Made by a program: the position numbers and the translations under genes
In this document: positions 34,891 to 43,619 of the stretch, one piece after another
Position numbering within the stretch: the first letter of the stretch is position 1
Layout: the number at the start of each line of letters is the position of its first letter
The notes under the pieces: generated by a model
What the model saw: only the letters and a program-made list of their open reading frames with translations
Told to the model about the DNA's origin: nothing
Database searches by the model: none
NCBI RefSeq assembly: GCF_900116765.1
Contig: NZ_UETC01000004.1
Coordinates: 124,001-188,000, forward strand
DNA: 64,000 nt
Reading direction: 5' to 3'
Source: Jannaschia seohaensis
GTDB taxonomy: Bacteria > Pseudomonadota > Alphaproteobacteria > Rhodobacterales > Rhodobacteraceae

Positions 34891-35133
34891 TCAGACGTTG
34901 CGGGACAGATAGTCTGACGCCAGAGTCGGCGTCGCAATCTGAGGGTAGTCCTTTTCGGGGATGTCGACCCCAAGTCGATCATGCAGCGCGACGACGAGGT
35001 TCAGGACGTCCATCGAATCCAACCCTAGGTCGTCTTGGATGTGGTCACCGTCGCCCACCGTCTCGGGATCGATATCGGGTGCGATGCGGCACAGCTCCGC
35101 CAGGAAGATGGCGCGGTAATCGGCTGCGGTCAT
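34891..35133 (-). CDS. dedicated acyl carrier protein
   Basis: An 80-residue acidic carrier protein. The phosphopantetheine site is DDLGLDSMDVLNLV with Ser40 as the attachment residue, the normal helix II start. It is the last gene of the leftward operon; its ATG overlaps the stop of the E2 gene (ATGA), so stoichiometric co-production is likely. It is distant in sequence from the AcpP of fatty-acid synthesis (LGADSLD), and no fatty-acid synthase genes are adjacent. A role in receiving acyl groups from the E2 or the acyl-CoA synthetase, or in lipoyl assembly, is possible but not shown. Confidence 0.88.
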   Translation of the reverse strand: MTAADYRAIFLAELCRIAPDIDPETVGDGDHIQDDLGLDSMDVLNLVVALHDRLGVDIPEKDYPQIATPTLASDYLSRNV

Positions 35134-36314
35134 AGATCCTCCGGTCTTTTCATCAGGTCTTCGAAAACAGCGATGAAGCGCGCGGCCTGGCGGCCGTCGC
35201 TGACCCGGTGATCGGCGGACAGGGTGAGCGTCACGACATGGCGGGGCACAACCGCGTCCTCCACGACCCAAGGCCGCAGATGCGGCGCCCCGATGCCGAC
35301 CAGCGCGACCTGCGGGGGAAAGATGACGCCTGTCATGGCCTCCGCCCCGGTCTCACCAAGGCTGGAGACGGTGATGGTGCCTTCCGTCATCTCCGAGCCC
35401 CGGAGCCGCCCGGCCCGCGTGCGGGTCACGAGGTCCCGCATGCCCGCCATGGTCTCCGCAAGGGTCATGGAGCCGGCATCCATCAGCGCGGGCGCCACCA
35501 GCCCGCCGCTGCGCAGGGCGATGGCGACACCGGTGTTCACGGCTTCCGACGGAACGAAGCCGCGATCCTCGATATAGTGACCGTTCATCACCTTCACCTT
35601 GGCGGCGGCCAGGGTCGCGGCGCGCACGAAGAGAGCCCCGAGGAGGATCCGCTGATCGGGGGGCAGGCCCGCGTTCCGGTCTTCGAGAAAGGCGATGGCG
35701 GGATCGACGTCGATCGTCTCGGAGAGGTAGAAATGCGGGATCGTCCGCTTGGCGCGGGTCATCGCGGCGGCGATGGCCTTGCGCATCTCTTCGATGGGGG
35801 ACGGTTTGGCGGCGGGCCTGCCGGGGGCCGCATGCTCCACATCGGCGAGCAGGATCGCGCCGCCCGGTCCGCTGCCCCGGAGCGTCGAAATGTCCACGCC
35901 GAGCGCATCGGCCCGTTGGCGGGCGGCCGGGGAGGCGCGCGGCCGGTCGGTGGCGGGTGGCGGTGCGGGACGGGGCGCAGGCGGCCGGGCCGGCGACGGG
36001 GCGGCATCGGGCGCGTCTGTCGGCGGCTGGGAGGGCAGGGCGGGTTCGGGCGCCTCGGCCGCCGCCGGCGGGGCATTTCCTTCGGCCAGCACGACGGCAA
36101 GCGGCGCGCCGACGGGCAATTCGCTGCCAAGCTCGGCCAGGATCTCCTGCACGGTCCCGTCCTCGAAGATCTCGATCTCGATCGCGCCCTTCTGCGTCTC
36201 GACGACGGCCACGACATCGCCCCGATGGACCTTGTCGCCCGGTTTCACGAGCCACTCGACCAGCGTCCCGGCCTCCATGTCCGCCCCGAGCGACGGCATC
36301 GCGAAGACACCCAT
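35130..36314 (-). CDS. 2-oxoacid dehydrogenase E2 acyltransferase
   Basis: A 394-residue E2. Residues 1-75 form one lipoyl domain with the lipoylated lysine in VETQKGAIE (Lys42). A proline/alanine-rich linker follows, then a subunit-binding domain (about 125-162, [19 protein letters not shown]), then the catalytic domain with the active-site HRVSDG near residue 369. It passes an acyl group from E1 to CoA. One lipoyl domain and the sequence style resemble acetoin/pyruvate dehydrogenase E2. ATG 36314 lies beside the E1 stop; the longer frame would overlap E1. No E3 (dihydrolipoamide dehydrogenase) is present, so a shared one must be used. Confidence 0.92.
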
Positions 36315-36315
36315 G

Positions 36316-38310
36316 TCAGCGCCCCATCTGCGCGCGCACGGCGGCGGCGATCTTGTCGACCTGCGGGATCGAAGCCTGTTCGAGATGGGCGGCATACGGG
36401 ATCGGCACCTCCTCGGAGCAGACGCGGGACACCGGCCCGTCGAGCGACCAGAACCCGCGCTCCATGATCCGCGCCATGATCTCGGCCGAAAGCGAGCCGG
36501 ACCGCCAGCCCTCGTCCACGATCACCGCGCGCCGGGTCTTGGCCAGGGAGGCGAGGATCGTCTCCTCGTCGAGGGGGCGGAGGCTGCGCAGATCGATCAC
36601 CTCCGCGTCGATCCCCTCCTCGGCCAGCTTGGCCGCCGCCTCCAGCGTCTTGAACAGCGAACCGCCATAGGTGACGAGGCTCACGTCCTTGCCGGCGCGC
36701 CGGATGGCGGCCTTGGCGATATCGACGGGCCCCGCCGCCGCGTCGATCTGCCCGGTCATGTTGTAGAGCATGACGTTCTCGAAGATCAGCACCGGATCGG
36801 GGTCCTCCAGCGCGGTCCAGAGCATGCCGCGCGCATCCTCGATCGTGGCGGGTGCCAGCACCTTCAGACCGGGGATATGCGCATACCAGCCCTCGAGCGA
36901 ATGCGAATGCTGCGCGGCTAGCTGCTTGCCCGCGCCGGTCGCCATGCGGATCACGACCGGCGCGCCGAACTGCCCGGCCGACATGTGACGGATCGTGGCG
37001 GCCGTATTCATGATCTGGTCGAGCGCGAGCAGGCTGAAATTCACGGTCATCACTTCGACGATCGGCCGCATCCCCGCCGCCGCCGCGCCGATGCCCGCGC
37101 CGGTAAAGCCGGATTCAGACAGGGGCGTGTCGCGGATACGATCCGCGCCGAACTCCTCCATGAGCCCCTTGCTCACGGCATAGCAGCCGCCATAGGCACC
37201 CACGTCCTCGCCCATCAGGAACACGCGCTCGTCCTTCAGCATCGCGTCGCGGATGCCCTGCTTGACCGCTTCGCGGTAGGTCATCTCCAGCATCCGCCCA
37301 GAGGGCGCGGGCGGCTCGGGCGGCGCGGGCTGCGGCCCCAGGACATGGCTGGTCAGCGTCTCCACCGGCTCCCAGGTCCCTGCTTCGGCGAAATCGACGG
37401 CCTCGGCGATTTCCGCCGCGACTTCGGCTTCGATCTCGTCGACATCGGCCTGATGGATCAGCTTGTTGTCCAGCAGCCAGCTCTGGAAGCGGGCGATCGG
37501 CCCCCGGATCCGCCATTGCGCCACCTCCTCCTTGTCGCGGTAGAGCTGGGCGTCGAACATCGAATGGGCCCGGAAGCGGTATGTGCTGCATTCCAGGAAA
37601 TGCGGGCGCCCGGTCTCGCGGATGCGGGCGATGGCGCGTCGCGCCGCCGCCTCCATCGCGACCACATCCATGCCGTCCACACGCTCGGCTTCTATGCCAT
37701 AGGCGGCGGCCTTCCGGTGGATGTCGGTTTCCGATTCCGTTCGGTCGAGCGCCGAGCCCATGGCGTAGCCGTTGTTTTCGCAGACAAACAGCGCCGGCAG
37801 ATCCCAAAGCTCGGCGAGGTTCATGGTCTCGTGGAATTCGCCCTCCGCGACCGCGCCCTCGCCGAAGAAGCAGGCGGTGACGTTCCGCTCGCCGCGGAGC
37901 CGGTCGGCCAGCGCGAGCCCGCCCGCCAGCGGCAGGCCGCCGCCGACGATGGCGTTACCGCCGTAGAAATTCGTCGCGCGATCGAAGATATGCATCGACC
38001 CGCCGCGGCCGCCGGAGCAGCCCTCGGCCTTGCCATACATCTCAGCCAAGATGGCGGGCATCGGCACGCCGCGCATGAGCGCGTGGCCATGCTCGCGATA
38101 GGTCGCGACGATCCGGTCCGTCTCCGCGAGGACGGGGATGACCCCCGCCGCGATCGCCTCCTCTCCGTCATAGAGATGGAGGAAGCCGCGAATTTTCTCC
38201 TGCGTGTAGAGCTCGGCGCATTTGTCCTCGAAGCGGCGGATGCGGATCATCCGGCGGAGCAGGTCCAGGACGTGGGGTCGGTCCAGGCGGGGCTTGTCGA
38301 TCGGCGTCAT
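36316..38310 (-). CDS. fused 2-oxoacid dehydrogenase E1 (alpha plus beta in one chain)
   Basis: A 664-residue protein joining two normally separate subunits. Residues 1 to about 325 are E1 alpha, with the thiamine-diphosphate motif [20 protein letters not shown]...ENN at 149-180 and RAHSMFD in the usual loop. A proline-rich linker ([13 protein letters not shown]) follows. Residues about 342-664 are E1 beta, starting [19 protein letters not shown] and containing [11 protein letters not shown] and [15 protein letters not shown]. It decarboxylates a 2-oxoacid and loads the lipoyl domain of E2. Which 2-oxoacid is unknown; pyruvate or acetoin is likely. Its ATG overlaps the stop of the upstream acyl-CoA synthetase gene. 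Confidence 0.92.
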
Positions 38311-40055
38311 GTCTCATCGGTCTCCAGCGTGGAAATGTCCCCTTCGGGCAGGCCGAGTTCGCGCGCCTTGAGCAGGCGGCGCATGATCTTGCCGGAGCGG
38401 GTTTTGGGCAGGGTCTTGCGAAAAACGATCTCGCGCGGGGCGACGGCGGGGCCGAGCTTCTTGCGCGCATGCCCCCGAATGTCGCGTTCGAGCGCGTCGC
38501 TCGCCTCGAAGCCGGGGTTCAGCGTGACATAGGCCTTCACGACCTCGCCGGCCGTCTCGTCGGGAATGCCGATCACGCCCGCCTCGGCCACGGTGTCATG
38601 CTCGATCAGGGCGCTTTCCACCTCGAAGGGACCGATCAGGTGGCCGGAGCTCTTGATGAGGTCGTCGGCGCGTCCCACGAACCAGTAATAGCCTTCGGAA
38701 TCTCGCATCGCGAGGTCGCCCGACAGATACCAGCCATCGACGAAGCACTTGTCGTAGCGGGCCTGCTCGTGGAGATAGGCGCGCATCATCGAGGGCCAGC
38801 CGGGGCGGAACGCAAGTTCTCCGATCTCGCCCGTGCCAAGCGCCCTGATCTTTCCGTCCGCGCGCGCGACGATGCCCGCTTCGATGCCCGGCAGCGGTTT
38901 GCCCATGGAGCCGGGCCTGACCTCCGCCCCCGGGCAATTGGCGATCATGATGCCGCCCGTCTCGGTCTGCCACCAATTGTCGTGGAAGGGCTGCCCGAAG
39001 ACCTCGGCGCTCCAGAGCACGGCCTCGGGGTTCAGGGGCTCGCCCACGGAGGCGAGGAATTTCAGCGCCGAGAAATCGAAGGGTTTCGCCGCCTCCGATC
39101 CCTCGCGCATCATCATGCGGATGGCGGTCGGGGCGGAGTACCAGACCTCGACCTTCTCGTCCTGCACAAGGGAATACCAGCGCTGCAGGTCGAATTCCGC
39201 CTCGTCGATCAGCATCGTGACCCGGTTCACGAGCGGCGAGATGATCCCGTAGGACGTCCCCGTCACCCAGCCCGGATCGGCGGTGCACCAATATGTCACG
39301 CCGGGCTCCAGCCCCAGCGCGACACGGCCCGAGAAGGTATGGTAGCGCACGGCATTATGCACGTGGACCGCGCCTTTGGGCTTGCCGGTCGTGCCCGAGG
39401 TGAAATGGATGAGCGCAGGGTCCTCGGGTCGGGTGGCCACCGTCTCGAATTCGGGAGAGGCCGCCGCCATGGCGGGCGCCAGCGCGACACAGCCCTCGGG
39501 CGCGGTATCGCCGAGGATCAGGACCAGCTTCAGCGTCTCGATCTCATGGGCCCAGGCAGCGATCTTGCGGCGATAGATGCTCTCGGTCGTGACGAGGACG
39601 TTGGCGTCACCGATCTCCATCCGGGTGCGCACGGGTTCCGGTCCGAAGGCGGAGAAGAGCGGCGTGAAGATCAGTCCGGCCTTCAGGGTGCCAAGCGCCG
39701 CAGCGTAAAGCTCCGGCACCCGCCCCGCCATGGCGAAGACGCTGTCGCCGGCCGCGAGCCCATGGGACGCCAGCACGTTTGCGAACCGGTTGGCCTGCGC
39801 CGTAAGCTCGGCGTAGCTCAGGTCGCGCCGCTCCCCCGACTTGCCCAGCCAGCGGATCGCGATCTCATCGCCATGGCCCGCCGCCACGTGCCGGTCGAGC
39901 GCCTCATGCGCGATGTTGACGCCCCCCTTCCAGCCGTCGATCAGGCCCCTGGCCTCCGCCCATTTGTCGCCTGAAGCATCGGCATCCACCGCCCGCGCGC
40001 CGGAACGTGGGACGCTCTCGGCACCGGGCAACGCGGCGTCGCTGTCATCGGTCAT
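38307..40055 (-). CDS. acetyl/acyl-CoA synthetase (AMP-forming, AcsA-like)
   Basis: A 582-residue adenylate-forming enzyme. Visible are the P-loop-like [46 protein letters not shown], and the C-terminal [12 protein letters not shown] with the regulatory lysine that is acetylated in acetyl-CoA synthetases. The tryptophan in WWQTETGG is the residue that restricts acyl length in acetate-specific enzymes. It activates acetate, or works backwards to save energy from acetyl-CoA. First gene of the leftward operon (synthetase, E1, E2, ACP), starting in the region shared with the hydrogenase. Confidence 0.92.
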
Positions 40056-40353
40056 CGGCCTCTCCTCCCACGCCCATTCTGCGAAGGTGGACGCGCGGCG
40101 AAATGACGGGTGTCAAAGACCGCGATGCGAAATCGGGGCAGGATCGCCGCCGGGAGCAGTCGCTCTCGTCCCGGGCATGCGGTCGGGCGCCATTGTCCTG
40201 CGGGGTCCGGTGGGGCGGCATCGGGCTTCGGAAGCTCTCCCGGATGTCGGCGCTGCGACCATGGGGCGCCCGGGGGGAGGGCATCACGGCTTCCCCACAC
40301 CCCGTCCTGGGACAGACCGGCTGATCCGCCAATCCGATAAAAGGCTTCGTTCT
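40056..40353. promoter_or_regulatory. divergent control region of the acetyl-CoA operon and hydrogenase
   Basis: This 298-base region separates two divergent units. It must contain promoters for both directions. It holds an FnrL-like palindrome (separate entry) near the synthetase start. I do not see a gene in it; frames crossing it are noise. Confidence 0.6.
40103..40116. promoter_or_regulatory. FNR/FnrL-like operator
   Basis: ATGACGGGTGTCAA matches the FnrL consensus TTGA(T/C)-N4-(A/G)TCAA at nine of ten positions. It is centred about 54 bases upstream of the synthetase start codon and about 245 before the hydrogenase start. The position suits anaerobic control of the leftward operon and possibly both units. 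It also resembles NnrR/Dnr sites. Confidence 0.45.
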
Positions 40354-42426
40354 ATGATCCTGCTTTCTGTCAACGGTCGGCAAGTCGACCTCGACGAGGG
40401 GGCCACCTTGCTCGATGCGGCGAAGGCAGCAGGCGTTCATGTCCCCACGCTCTGTCATCATCCAGGCCTGCCGGCCCATGCCGCCTGCCGCATCTGCCTC
40501 GTGGAGGTGGAGGGCAATCCGCGCCCCCAGCCGGCGTGCAGAACCCTGGCGAGAGACGGCGATGTGGTTCAGACGGATACGGAGGCGTTGCAGGCATTCC
40601 GGCGCGCCGATGCGGAATGGCTACTCGCGAACCACCCGAACGACTGTATGCGCTGCGAGGTGAACGGCAGCTGCCGGCTCCAGCGTCTCGTCAGCGAACA
40701 CCAGTGGGAGGAACGGTGGCCCAAGGTCGTCGCGGTCGCGGCGAAATCCGAGGAGGACGTTTTCACGGACCATACCTCACCCAGCATCTGGCGGGATCTG
40801 TCGAAATGTATCGAATGTGGCCTCTGCGCGGATGTCTGCGGGGACGCGGTCCAGCAGCAGGATGTCATCGGCTTTGGCGAACGGGGAGGCGACCGCCGGC
40901 CCGTCACCGTCTTCGACGCGCCTCTGGCTGAGACGAACTGCATCTCCTGCGGGCAATGCACCCTCGTCTGTCCGGTTGGGGCCCTGATCGAGTCCCCGCA
41001 CTGGCATGAGGTGCTTCATACGCTCGATGCCCGGCGGCGGGTGTCCGTCGTTCAGGTCGCGCCGGCAACCCGCATCGCCATCAGCGAGGAGTTCGGTCTC
41101 AAGCCCGGGACCGTAAGCACGGGGCGATTGATCAACGCGCTGCGGCAGCTTGGTTTCGATTATGTGTTCGACACGAATTTCGCCGCCGATCTCACGATCA
41201 TGGAGGAAGGCTCCGAACTGCTCGCGCGGATGGAAGCGCACGAATCGCTGCCGCTGTTCACATCCTGCTGCCCGGGTTGGGTGAATTGGGTCGAGCTCAA
41301 CCGGCCCGACCTTCTGCCGCATCTCAGCACGACGAAATCGCCCCAGCAAATGCATGGGGCAATCGCCAAGCGCAGCGGCTTCGCGCGGTCACTCGGGCCG
41401 GATTTCGCCGAAGGCAAAACCGAGCCGTACGTCGTCAGCGTCATGCCCTGCACCGCCAAGAAGGACGAGGCCCAGCGGCCCGGCAGTTCCGGCGACGTGG
41501 ATCGCGTGCTCACGACGCGGGAACTGGCCCGCATGATCCGAGCCAGGGGGATTGCGTTCGGGGCGCTCTCCGAGGACGGCCAGTTCGACAGTCCGCTCGG
41601 AGAGAGCACGGGCGCGGCGCAGATCTTCGGCGCCTCCGGCGGCGTCATGGAAGCCATGGTTCGAACGGCATCGCATCTCAAAGGCGGGGATGCGTCGCTT
41701 CCCCTCGACTGGGAGGCCCTGCGCGGCGTCCGGGAGGGTGTAAAGACCGCGACGATCCCGGGCATCGGCACCGTGGCCGTCTGCAACGGCATCGCGGCGG
41801 CCCAGCGCATGCTGGAGCAGGAAGCCTGGCGGGACGAATTCGTCGCAATCGAAGTCATGGCCTGTGTCGGCGGCTGCCTCGGCGGCGGCGGCGAGCCCAA
41901 GTCCATGGATCCGCAGATCCTCCAGAAGCGCGCCAAGGCGATCTACGGCGTTGACGCGACGGCGCGGCACCGACGGTCCTACGAGAATGCGGATGTGCGG
42001 AAACTCTATGCCCGGGAGCTCGGCGCGCCGAACTCCCCTGCGGCGCATGACTTGCTCCACACCCAGTACACGGCCAGACAGTCCCGACGCTCGCTTCTGA
42101 TGCGGTTTCTCGACTGTGTGGACAGGCGGGACGGCGCTGCGGCCGCGCGCCTGTTTCATTCCGAGGGCGTTTGGGACACGGCCTCTGCGTTCGGCGTTAT
42201 TGAGGGGGCTAAGGAAATCGAGGCCCTCATACACTCGAAACTACCGCCAAGATCCTACGGTCCGAAATATGCCCGACACCGGATGGAGTCCGCGGCGGGT
42301 CTCGATGACCTCACGGTTGTGACGCCAGAGGGCAGCCGATGCCGGTTTCATCTGGATCTCACCGAGCTGGACGGTGGGGGAACATCGAAGACGGTGATTG
42401 GAAAACTGATCCGCACCGTCTTGTGA
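40354..42426 (+). CDS. [FeFe]-hydrogenase with an extra C-terminal NTF2/SnoaL-like domain
   Basis: A 690-residue protein with a complete iron-hydrogenase layout. Residues 1-75: plant-type [2Fe-2S] domain with Cys34, 45, 48 and 62. Residues 94-107: His-ligated [4Fe-4S] (HPNDCMRCEVNGSC). Residues 152-206: two [4Fe-4S] motifs (CIECGLCADVC, CISCGQCTLVC). The H-cluster domain has all three signatures: L1 TSCCPGW (303-309, including the proton-relay cysteine), L2 VMPCTAKKDE (363-372), L3 EVMACVGGCLGGGGEP (500-515). A small-subunit-like tail (about 517-575) follows. Residues about 576-690 form an added domain (FLDCVDRRDGAAAARLFHSEGVW) whose order resembles SnoaL/NTF2 folds. It should form or oxidise H2 with ferredoxin. 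No hydE/F/G maturases are in the window. The longer frame upstream of ATG 40354 is noise. Confidence 0.93.
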   Translation: MILLSVNGRQVDLDEGATLLDAAKAAGVHVPTLCHHPGLPAHAACRICLVEVEGNPRPQPACRTLARDGDVVQTDTEALQAFRRADAEWLLANHPNDCMRCEVNGSCRLQRLVSEHQWEERWPKVVAVAAKSEEDVFTDHTSPSIWRDLSKCIECGLCADVCGDAVQQQDVIGFGERGGDRRPVTVFDAPLAETNCISCGQCTLVCPVGALIESPHWHEVLHTLDARRRVSVVQVAPATRIAISEEFGLKPGTVSTGRLINALRQLGFDYVFDTNFAADLTIMEEGSELLARMEAHESLPLFTSCCPGWVNWVELNRPDLLPHLSTTKSPQQMHGAIAKRSGFARSLGPDFAEGKTEPYVVSVMPCTAKKDEAQRPGSSGDVDRVLTTRELARMIRARGIAFGALSEDGQFDSPLGESTGAAQIFGASGGVMEAMVRTASHLKGGDASLPLDWEALRGVREGVKTATIPGIGTVAVCNGIAAAQRMLEQEAWRDEFVAIEVMACVGGCLGGGGEPKSMDPQILQKRAKAIYGVDATARHRRSYENADVRKLYARELGAPNSPAAHDLLHTQYTARQSRRSLLMRFLDCVDRRDGAAAARLFHSEGVWDTASAFGVIEGAKEIEALIHSKLPPRSYGPKYARHRMESAAGLDDLTVVTPEGSRCRFHLDLTELDGGGTSKTVIGKLIRTVL

Positions 42427-42491: not shown

Positions 42492-43517
42492 TCAGGCGGG
42501 CAAAGGTTCCAGCCCGGCCCGCGCGCGCATCCGGCCCAGGGCGCGCAACGGGTCGCGCATGTCCTCGATCTGCTCCCAGGCGCCTTCGGCGAGATGGGGG
42601 CCGATCGCCTCCAGATGCGGGGCGGCGGTCGGCCAGCCAACAAGCGCGGCCATCGAGGCGCCTATGACGTTATGAGCGATCAGGCTTCGGGCGCGGGGCT
42701 GCGGGCGCTCCAGCCCGGCCAGGGCCCCGGCCTGAAGCTGGAGCAACTCCGCGGTATAGTTCGGGTCGTCGCGCCGGGTCTTGTGGCGCTCGGCGGCGTC
42801 CGGGACGTCGCTCATATGCTCATGCCAGACGCAATCCTGGAGTCGGCCGCGCATCTCCAGCGCGATCCAGGCGGGGCCCTGATGCTCCCGGTCGCGGATC
42901 ACCGCCCACATGTCTTCCTGCGTGGCCCCCCAGCGCGCCTCCCAGGCGGTCAGCAGCGCGAGGTCGGCGGCGAGGCACGCTTCCGAGGTCGTCAAGAGGA
43001 TGTCGGTTTGCGCCGCCACGCCCTCATGATCGGAAAGCCCCATCGCCGCCCGCAGCCCGAAGCCGAGCGCCACGATATCGGCCCCGTCGGCCTGGCGGGC
43101 CATGTCGAGCGCCATCCGGGCATGGCGCAGCCGATCCTGCATTTCGGCACGGGCCGTCTCGCTGACGCGATGGGCGGGGCCCGCGCCGCGATGCCGCCAG
43201 GCCAGCGTCACCAGCAGACCGCCGGCCACCTTCAGCGCCGCGCCGCGCCGCGCGCCCGAAGGCAGGGGGCGAGCCACGGGCCAAAGCCCGCCCATCAGAT
43301 CGATCCAGAGATAGCGATCGTCCGCCGTCTGGCTGCTATACAGGGCCGCGACCCTGTCCCAGTCGCCATCATGCAGCGCCGCGAGCCCTTCGCGCACCAG
43401 CGGCTGGCCTAGGGTCCGGTCGAACTCGGGGGCGCGCAAGCCGCGCAAGCGGCGCAGGCCGTCGCGGACCAGACCGCCCTCGGCGATCGGATGGAACGAG
43501 AAACGATCGATAAACAT
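42492..43517 (-). CDS. hypothetical helical protein
   Basis: A 341-residue protein I do not recognise. It has no signal peptide or membrane segment and reads as mostly alpha-helical, with repeated hydrophobic/charged helices (LVREGLAALHDGDWDRVAAL, ALDMARQADGADIVALGFGL) that suggest a TPR-like or helical-repeat fold. ATG 43517 (MFIDRFSFHPIAEGG) is chosen over one nine codons earlier because GGGAGG stands 11 bases ahead. The stop lies 65 bases from the hydrogenase stop; the genes are convergent. Not clearly linked to neighbours. Confidence 0.7.
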   Translation of the reverse strand: MFIDRFSFHPIAEGGLVRDGLRRLRGLRAPEFDRTLGQPLVREGLAALHDGDWDRVAALYSSQTADDRYLWIDLMGGLWPVARPLPSGARRGAALKVAGGLLVTLAWRHRGAGPAHRVSETARAEMQDRLRHARMALDMARQADGADIVALGFGLRAAMGLSDHEGVAAQTDILLTTSEACLAADLALLTAWEARWGATQEDMWAVIRDREHQGPAWIALEMRGRLQDCVWHEHMSDVPDAAERHKTRRDDPNYTAELLQLQAGALAGLERPQPRARSLIAHNVIGASMAALVGWPTAAPHLEAIGPHLAEGAWEQIEDMRDPLRALGRMRARAGLEPLPA

Positions 43518-43619
43518 ACGGCAGACGCCCTCCCAGGTGCGCACAGGCGAACCTGCGCCGGGAAATGGGCGTCGCCTGGGGCGGCGGGGGGCGTTTTCGC
43601 GGCGGGGCCTGGGCGGAGG

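Follow-up and report, generated by a model that had tools for sequence, protein, structure and literature searches.

The [FeFe]-hydrogenase-type gene at positions 40354-42426 of the window (that is, of the whole 64,000-nucleotide stretch of DNA analyzed) encodes a stand-alone HydA-type protein; it belongs to a distinct proteobacterial clade in which such proteins carry a C-terminal SnoaL-like domain (fusion proteins, from here on). The tested hosts of this clade carry no HydG and, at the thresholds given below, no HydE or HydF, the three proteins held necessary for active [FeFe]-hydrogenases, and purifying selection on the catalytic domain is strong. We consider an orphan enzyme with an H-cluster pocket, loaded without HydEFG, to be the best reading of these data, albeit a tentative one whose chance falls a little short of even.

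Architecture of the fusion protein

ORF and profile searches confirmed a forward-strand, group A [FeFe]-hydrogenase-type gene that starts with ATG and encodes 690 amino acids (Table 1). The protein scored 432.4 bits against TIGR02512 ([FeFe] hydrogenase, group A), above the curated cut-off of 405.95, which places it in this family, and matched PF02906 with an E value of 3.9e-81. Among solved structures, the bifurcating HydA1 of Thermoanaerobacter kivui (8a6t_A) came closest both in sequence (E 4.7e-145) and in fold (TMt 0.88 and rmsd 4.0 for the match of the model). The Pfam domains follow the usual order, i.e., [2Fe-2S], His-ligated [4Fe-4S], two [4Fe-4S], H-cluster domain and small-subunit tail, and none of the 16 accessory-cluster ligands, four H-cluster cysteines or proton-path residues is missing. 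The first-pass annotation of this DNA had described the signatures as complete, and sequence and alignment agree for the Fe-S ligands, the three H-cluster motifs and the proton-relay cysteine; the feature that it overlooked is the C-terminal SnoaL fusion. This domain belongs to the SnoaL-like/NTF2 superfamily, based on a SnoaL_4 score above the cut-off together with a matching fold: modeled alone, it reached a pLDDT of 90.0, and Foldseek returned cystatin-like, SnoaL and ketosteroid-isomerase-fold matches (best E 3.1e-5; TMq 0.43-0.64 among the 50 matches listed). The AlphaFold model of the full protein had a mean pLDDT of 82.4 and five stretches below 50. One of these, residues 509-514, lies near the last H-cluster cysteine; hence, the effect of E514 is not readable from this model.

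Table 1. Features of the fusion gene and its product (window positions).
Feature	Positions	Strand	Evidence
Shine-Dalgarno-like AAAAGG	40339..40344	+	sequence; 9 nt before ATG
HydA-SnoaL fusion gene, 690 aa	40354..42426	+	ORF, profiles, structure match
[2Fe-2S] domain (Fer2_4), residues 2-76	40357..40581	+	PF13510, 62.9 bits
His/Cys3 [4Fe-4S] domain (NADH-G_4Fe-4S_3), residues 84-120	40603..40713	+	PF10588, 42 bits; H94, C98, C101, C107 invariant
Two [4Fe-4S] clusters, residues 150-211	40801..40986	+	Fer4 families; 8 cysteines invariant
H-cluster domain (Fe_hyd_lg_C), residues 231-512	41044..41889	+	PF02906, 272.7 bits
L1 TSCCPGW (CpI C299, C300)	41260..41280	+	sequence, alignment
L2 MPCTAKKDE (CpI M353, C355, K358)	41443..41469	+	sequence, alignment
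L3 EVMACVGGCLGGGGEP (CpI M497, C499, C503)	41851..41898	+	sequence, alignment
Residue E514	41893..41895	+	E in 63/63 fusion-clade proteins; Q in 30/31 ordinary HydAs compared
Fe_hyd_SSU, residues 521-575	41914..42078	+	PF02256, 63 bits
SnoaL/NTF2-like C-terminal domain, residues 576-690	42079..42423	+	PF13577 (SnoaL_4), 28.5 bits, cut-off 24

Distribution and history of the fusion gene

Among the best 80 of 291 matching stretches, 66 (L011-L076) were of the fusion type, with 66-82% identity. Most of these matches span the whole 690 residues or fall just short, and contig ends truncate a few; their hosts are Alpha-, Beta- and Gammaproteobacteria plus one Mariprofundus. The other 14, from Thermotogota, lacked the fusion and were 45-49% identical across some 580 residues. 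In the window's class, 385 genomes were screened; PF02906 matched in 24, and two carried the fusion type, the window's own genome and G232, whose protein (L107) is 74.6% identical to the window protein over 690 residues; the earlier remark that such hydrogenases are rare in these bacteria is thus borne out. No HydG was found in G232. Ordinary group A HydAs occurred in 17 of the 24 genomes, with HydG over the cut-off in nine, in two pieces in one and none in seven, and the remaining five had more distant or partial matches only (HydG in two). In the class of Janthinobacterium (G031), 9 of 369 genomes matched: three with the fusion (69-71% identical across 690 residues; no HydG; already counted among the 44 genomes below), five with ordinary HydAs (38-42% identity; HydG in four) and one with a marginal match. 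Seven alphaproteobacterial genomes (L093, L095, L097, L099-L101 and L106) combine an ordinary group A HydA with no HydG over the cut-off; four of them are 96-100% complete, and the set includes both f38-family and both f90-family genomes.

The fusion proteins form one clade (SH-aLRT 100), and the branch that separates them from the ordinary HydAs has a drawn length of 0.8 on each side of the root; this is a 'quick' tree with SH-aLRT support only, and its outgroup branches are long, which makes the deep order unsure. A 99%-supported subclade contains the window protein, L107 and 17 of the 18 named alphaproteobacterial rows (L024 falls apart from it), and the Beta- and Gammaproteobacterial rows are intermixed. 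Therefore, the tree suggests old residence of the fusion gene with some transfer as opposed to recent gain, and the position of the window protein inside that subclade argues against the annotation's suggestion that it was recently acquired. Placement of the protein in a clade known to lack H-cluster activity had been named as evidence to the contrary; the clade recovered here keeps the H-cluster residues, while its tested genomes are without the known maturation genes. Judging from the nearest proteins, the host is probably kin to Rhodobacteraceae-like bacteria.

A broken second copy of the fusion gene lies in the same genome on contig 21 near 114 kb (L002, 1237-2429); it matches residues 1-308 in three frames and residues 617-688, with the stretch between unmatched, next to an ORF (L002, 26-901) that we take to be of PHA-synthase type. 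Matches were also found in 178 plasmid records, all below 60% identity and nine covering at least 80% of the query. None of the 40 (of 178) plasmid matches listed extends past residue 579, so none of those 40 shows the fusion.

Maturation genes

The window's own genome (99.99% complete) had zero matches to HydE and HydG at E 0.001 and nine to HydF, all below the cut-off (best 71.7 vs. 325.55 bits); the HydF model also matched 14 of 14 control genomes, in one of them over the cut-off. For the relatives, we reached 44 genomes from 45 fusion loci and used five Thermotogota genomes as controls in the same searches. HydG, HydE over the cut-off and HydF at E 1e-30 were each found in 0 of the 44 proteobacterial genomes vs. 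4 of the 5 Thermotogota, with all three genes present in four controls and none of the three in the fifth. Weak HydE-model matches occurred in 9 of the 44 (best 42.9 vs. a cut-off of 254.6 bits), in five of the 44 genomes 30 of the 31-34 HydF candidates were scored, and completeness is not stated for the 44, of which 21 are titled MAG or uncultured and 23 neither. Overall, HydG was absent from all 46 fusion genomes, and HydE over the cut-off and HydF at E 1e-30 from all 45 searched for them, the window's own and the 44 relatives. That is, the combination of HydE, HydF and HydG expected in the genome of a functional [FeFe]-hydrogenase is absent, at these thresholds, from the window's genome and its tested relatives. 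The first-pass annotation had envisioned a hidden fermentative H2 ability and had itself named missing maturases as evidence to the contrary; this suggestion is not supported, and cultures of Thiomicrorhabdus chilensis, of the same clade, consumed no H2 under the conditions described in the accessible part of PMC4744846.

Among 27 genomes with ordinary HydAs, Thermotogota included (17 of the window's class, 5 of Janthinobacterium's class and 5 Thermotogota), 18 carried HydG. This count takes G051 as positive, where HydG lies in two pieces, each below the cut-off, and leaves out four genomes whose matches are 25-29% identical and not group-A-like (G221, G317, G394 and G420; HydG in G317 and G394), as well as G118, a partial case that did not match the query, and G578, whose match was marginal. 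Fisher's test of 0/46 vs. 18/27 gives 9e-11 but ignores kinship, and our argument therefore rests on the counts. The 9 of 27 genomes with an ordinary HydA and no HydG call for caution, since they may reflect orphan HydAs elsewhere or incomplete bins.

Conservation and selection

In the alignment of 63 fusion proteins (the window protein, 61 of the 66 loci and L107), all 16 accessory-cluster ligands and the four H-cluster cysteines are invariant, and so are, in CpI numbers, C299, E279, E282, R286, M353, K358, F417 and M497, with S319 and Q325 varying once each. The proton path runs E282-S319-E279-C299, with R286 at its entrance (CpI numbers; PMC6226526, accessible part); the H-cluster cysteines, the proton-relay cysteine and the path are invariant or kept in 62 of 63 proteins, in agreement with membership of group A. 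Twelve of the 14 non-ligand sites tied to the 2Fe unit or the proton path show no variation and the other two are kept in 62/63; across the H-domain as a whole, 108 of 285 sites are invariant (hypergeometric P 2e-4, for sites picked by the analyst). More broadly, 99 of the 112 sites conserved across 31 ordinary HydAs are kept, and two near-universal positions are swapped in 63/63 fusion proteins (L89W and Q514E).

Nonsynonymous change was lower than synonymous change in nearly every domain of 11 pairs taken from 62 codon rows. For instance, the H-domain of the window-L068 pair showed dN 0.055 vs. dS 0.80, the lowest dN among the four regions of that pair. Among the more distant pairs, constraint was strongest on the H-domain; this did not hold for the closest Burkholderiales pairs, and in the SnoaL domain of L061-L065, a close pair, the two rates were nearly equal, based on few changes. 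At most of the conserved sites, the residue is fixed while synonymous codons differ.

Genomic neighborhood and other suppliers

No conserved neighbor gene emerged around the fusion loci, the commonest family occurring in 8 of 66 (contig ends truncate many of the flanks). In the window, genes for an AMP-binding synthetase, a fused PDH-type E1, an E2 and a carrier protein stand in a row at 34891-40055 (minus strand), divergent from the hydrogenase gene; matches to these families in just 4-6 of 66 loci led us to reject them as a functional clue. Directly downstream, at 42492-43544 (minus strand), an ORF of 350 aa gave no hit in Pfam at 1e-5. A bifurcating HydABC with adjacent genes was rejected as well: none of the seven window neighbors scanned was of the hydB/hydC type and, when the flanks of the relatives were clustered, every family stayed within 8 of the 66. 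HypCDEF cannot be a general supplier, because HypD occurred in only 7 of 46 genomes; the window's genome carries HypD on contig 16 (251672-252724), and hence a [NiFe]-hydrogenase may exist there. FNR boxes within 300 bases upstream showed a weak excess (exact in 3/64 vs. 0.7% of random stretches; with at most one mismatch in 9/64 vs. 5.8%) that we did not rely on.

Alternative explanations

If the pocket is loaded without HydEFG, it would still hold a catalytic, H-cluster-like diiron site, and the diiron site would be installed by a route independent of HydE, HydF and HydG. Electrons would pass from a soluble partner (NADH-linked or ferredoxin) through the N-terminal clusters, as an Fe-S wire, to the pocket, protons would take the normal path (E288, S325, E285 and C305), and the SnoaL domain might, at a guess, bind a small molecule acting as regulator of the site or as substrate. 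Redox balancing or sensing at low oxygen is a more likely role than growth on H2. We favor HydEFG-independent loading because selection acts on residues that serve the 2Fe unit; the invariant Fe-S and H-cluster ligands, the 99 retained sites, the low nonsynonymous rate of the H-domain, the full support of the clade and the absence, at the thresholds used, of HydEFG from genomes whose Thermotogota counterparts mostly have it all point the same way, and draft genomes of Giardia and Entamoeba are reported to be without HydE and HydG (PMC2148110, accessible part). Several observations weigh against such loading: an alternative maturation gene was not found among the neighbor families (none in more than 8 of 66 loci) or with HypD, T. 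chilensis did not consume H2 as tested, the same part of PMC2148110 regards HydE and HydG as mandatory in bacteria, conservation could partly reflect the needs of the fold and the [4Fe-4S] cluster, and ordinary HydAs, too, can occur without HydG.

The main alternative, which we regard as an appreciable possibility though clearly less than even, is a maturase-free Fe-S protein in which the 2Fe unit is never installed. With the N-terminal clusters and the [4Fe-4S] of the pocket alone, and coupled to the SnoaL domain, such a protein would carry electrons, act as a reductase or sense redox state. It is favored because maturases (HydG in 46/46 genomes; HydE/HydF at threshold in 45/45) and H2 consumption (T. 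chilensis; PMC4744846, accessible part) are missing; fixation of Q514E near the last H-cluster cysteine and the lack of a conserved partner gene nearby are consistent with it as well. However, it leaves the invariance of C299, E279, E282, R286, M353, K358 and M497 (and S319 in 62/63) to be explained, and purifying selection is strong where relaxation would be expected. Under either of these two readings, fusion to SnoaL and the Q514E change point to a shift. It is unlikely that the protein is an ordinary [FeFe]-hydrogenase with maturases that the models miss through divergence or that fall into assembly gaps: unstated completeness, the many MAG or uncultured titles, the weak HydE matches and the partial HydF scoring leave room for it, but three separate genes would have to be missed together, including in the nearly complete own genome and the 23 genomes titled neither MAG nor uncultured, in searches that matched the positive controls and in which the best HydE score stayed far below the cut-off. 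We think it very improbable that the gene is a useless remnant, en route to loss after the maturases went; the broken second copy and the patchy distribution (2/385 and 3/369 genomes) fit a remnant. Against it, dN stayed below dS in almost every pair and domain compared, 62 relatives keep the frame at full length, and the gene persists down to 60% pairwise identity. Equally improbable is uptake of the diiron cofactor, or a precursor, from HydEFG-bearing neighbors in low-oxygen communities, for which the semisynthetic CpI made with a supplied [2Fe] cofactor (according to the title of 4xdc) offers a parallel and which is otherwise inference only. Returning to HydEFG-independent loading, it is possible, though we put this broader claim at noticeably under an even chance, that Proteobacteria have a second route of this sort by which a hydrogenase-type pocket receives a catalytic cofactor, diiron or other, and that it is used in HydA-SnoaL for aerobic or low-oxygen redox chemistry and not for H2 metabolism.

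Significance and comparison with known systems

Some members of the clade are already listed as putative hydrogenases; the fusion and the missing maturases were not found described. A 2016 paper (PMC4744846, accessible part), citing Greening 2015, reports putative group A1 [FeFe]-hydrogenases in Thiomicrospira, Hydrogenovibrio, Roseibacterium and Wenzhouxiangella, names T. chilensis, T. kuenenii and T. pelophila among the organisms discussed, and states that no biochemical data exist for these proteins; H2 evolution, the fusion and missing maturases are not mentioned in that part. These proteins apparently are the fusion clade, and the protein of T. chilensis DSM 12352 (locus L073 of our set) is probably one of those meant. 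The accessible part of PMC4967309 reports maturases in some Rhodospirillales and its main text, as far as available, does not mention Thioclava, Hyphomonas or Gallionella; the available part of PMC6265342 adds nothing further on the clade. Our literature search, which covered few subscription papers, returned no paper with both FeFe hydrogenase and SnoaL and no description of the clade's missing maturases.

A clade in three proteobacterial classes and Mariprofundus that keeps the active-site residues, with none of the three maturases found in the tested genomes, can be read in two ways: as an apo-hydrogenase that occurs naturally, is under selection and does a different job, or as a sign that a further maturation route exists. 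Both readings are directly testable in culturable bacteria. Further, H2 production may be overstated by surveys in which these genes are counted as group A hydrogenases that evolve H2.

Nar1/IOP1 hydrogenase-like proteins also show the hydrogenase fold in organisms without HydEFG, but they have lost the 2Fe-unit residues; these residues are kept in the fusion clade, which is why we rejected a Nar1/IOP1-type protein. The hydrogenases of Giardia and Entamoeba resemble the fusion proteins in that HydE and HydG are reported absent from the draft genomes (PMC2148110, accessible part); this likeness is drawn from gene absence, not from sequences, and the hosts, unlike those of the fusion, are anaerobic eukaryotes. 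Finally, the fusion protein scored 649.1 bits against the NADH-dependent [FeFe] hydrogenase group A6 model (NF040763), below the cut-off of 765, and thus falls outside that family; it differs from bifurcating HydA1 in its SnoaL domain and Q514E, in having no conserved partner gene and in tested hosts without HydEFG at the thresholds used, while residues 1-576 align with the group A6 bifurcating HydA1 (8a6t; FeFe_hydrog_A6), the cluster wire and H-cluster pocket being alike in the two.
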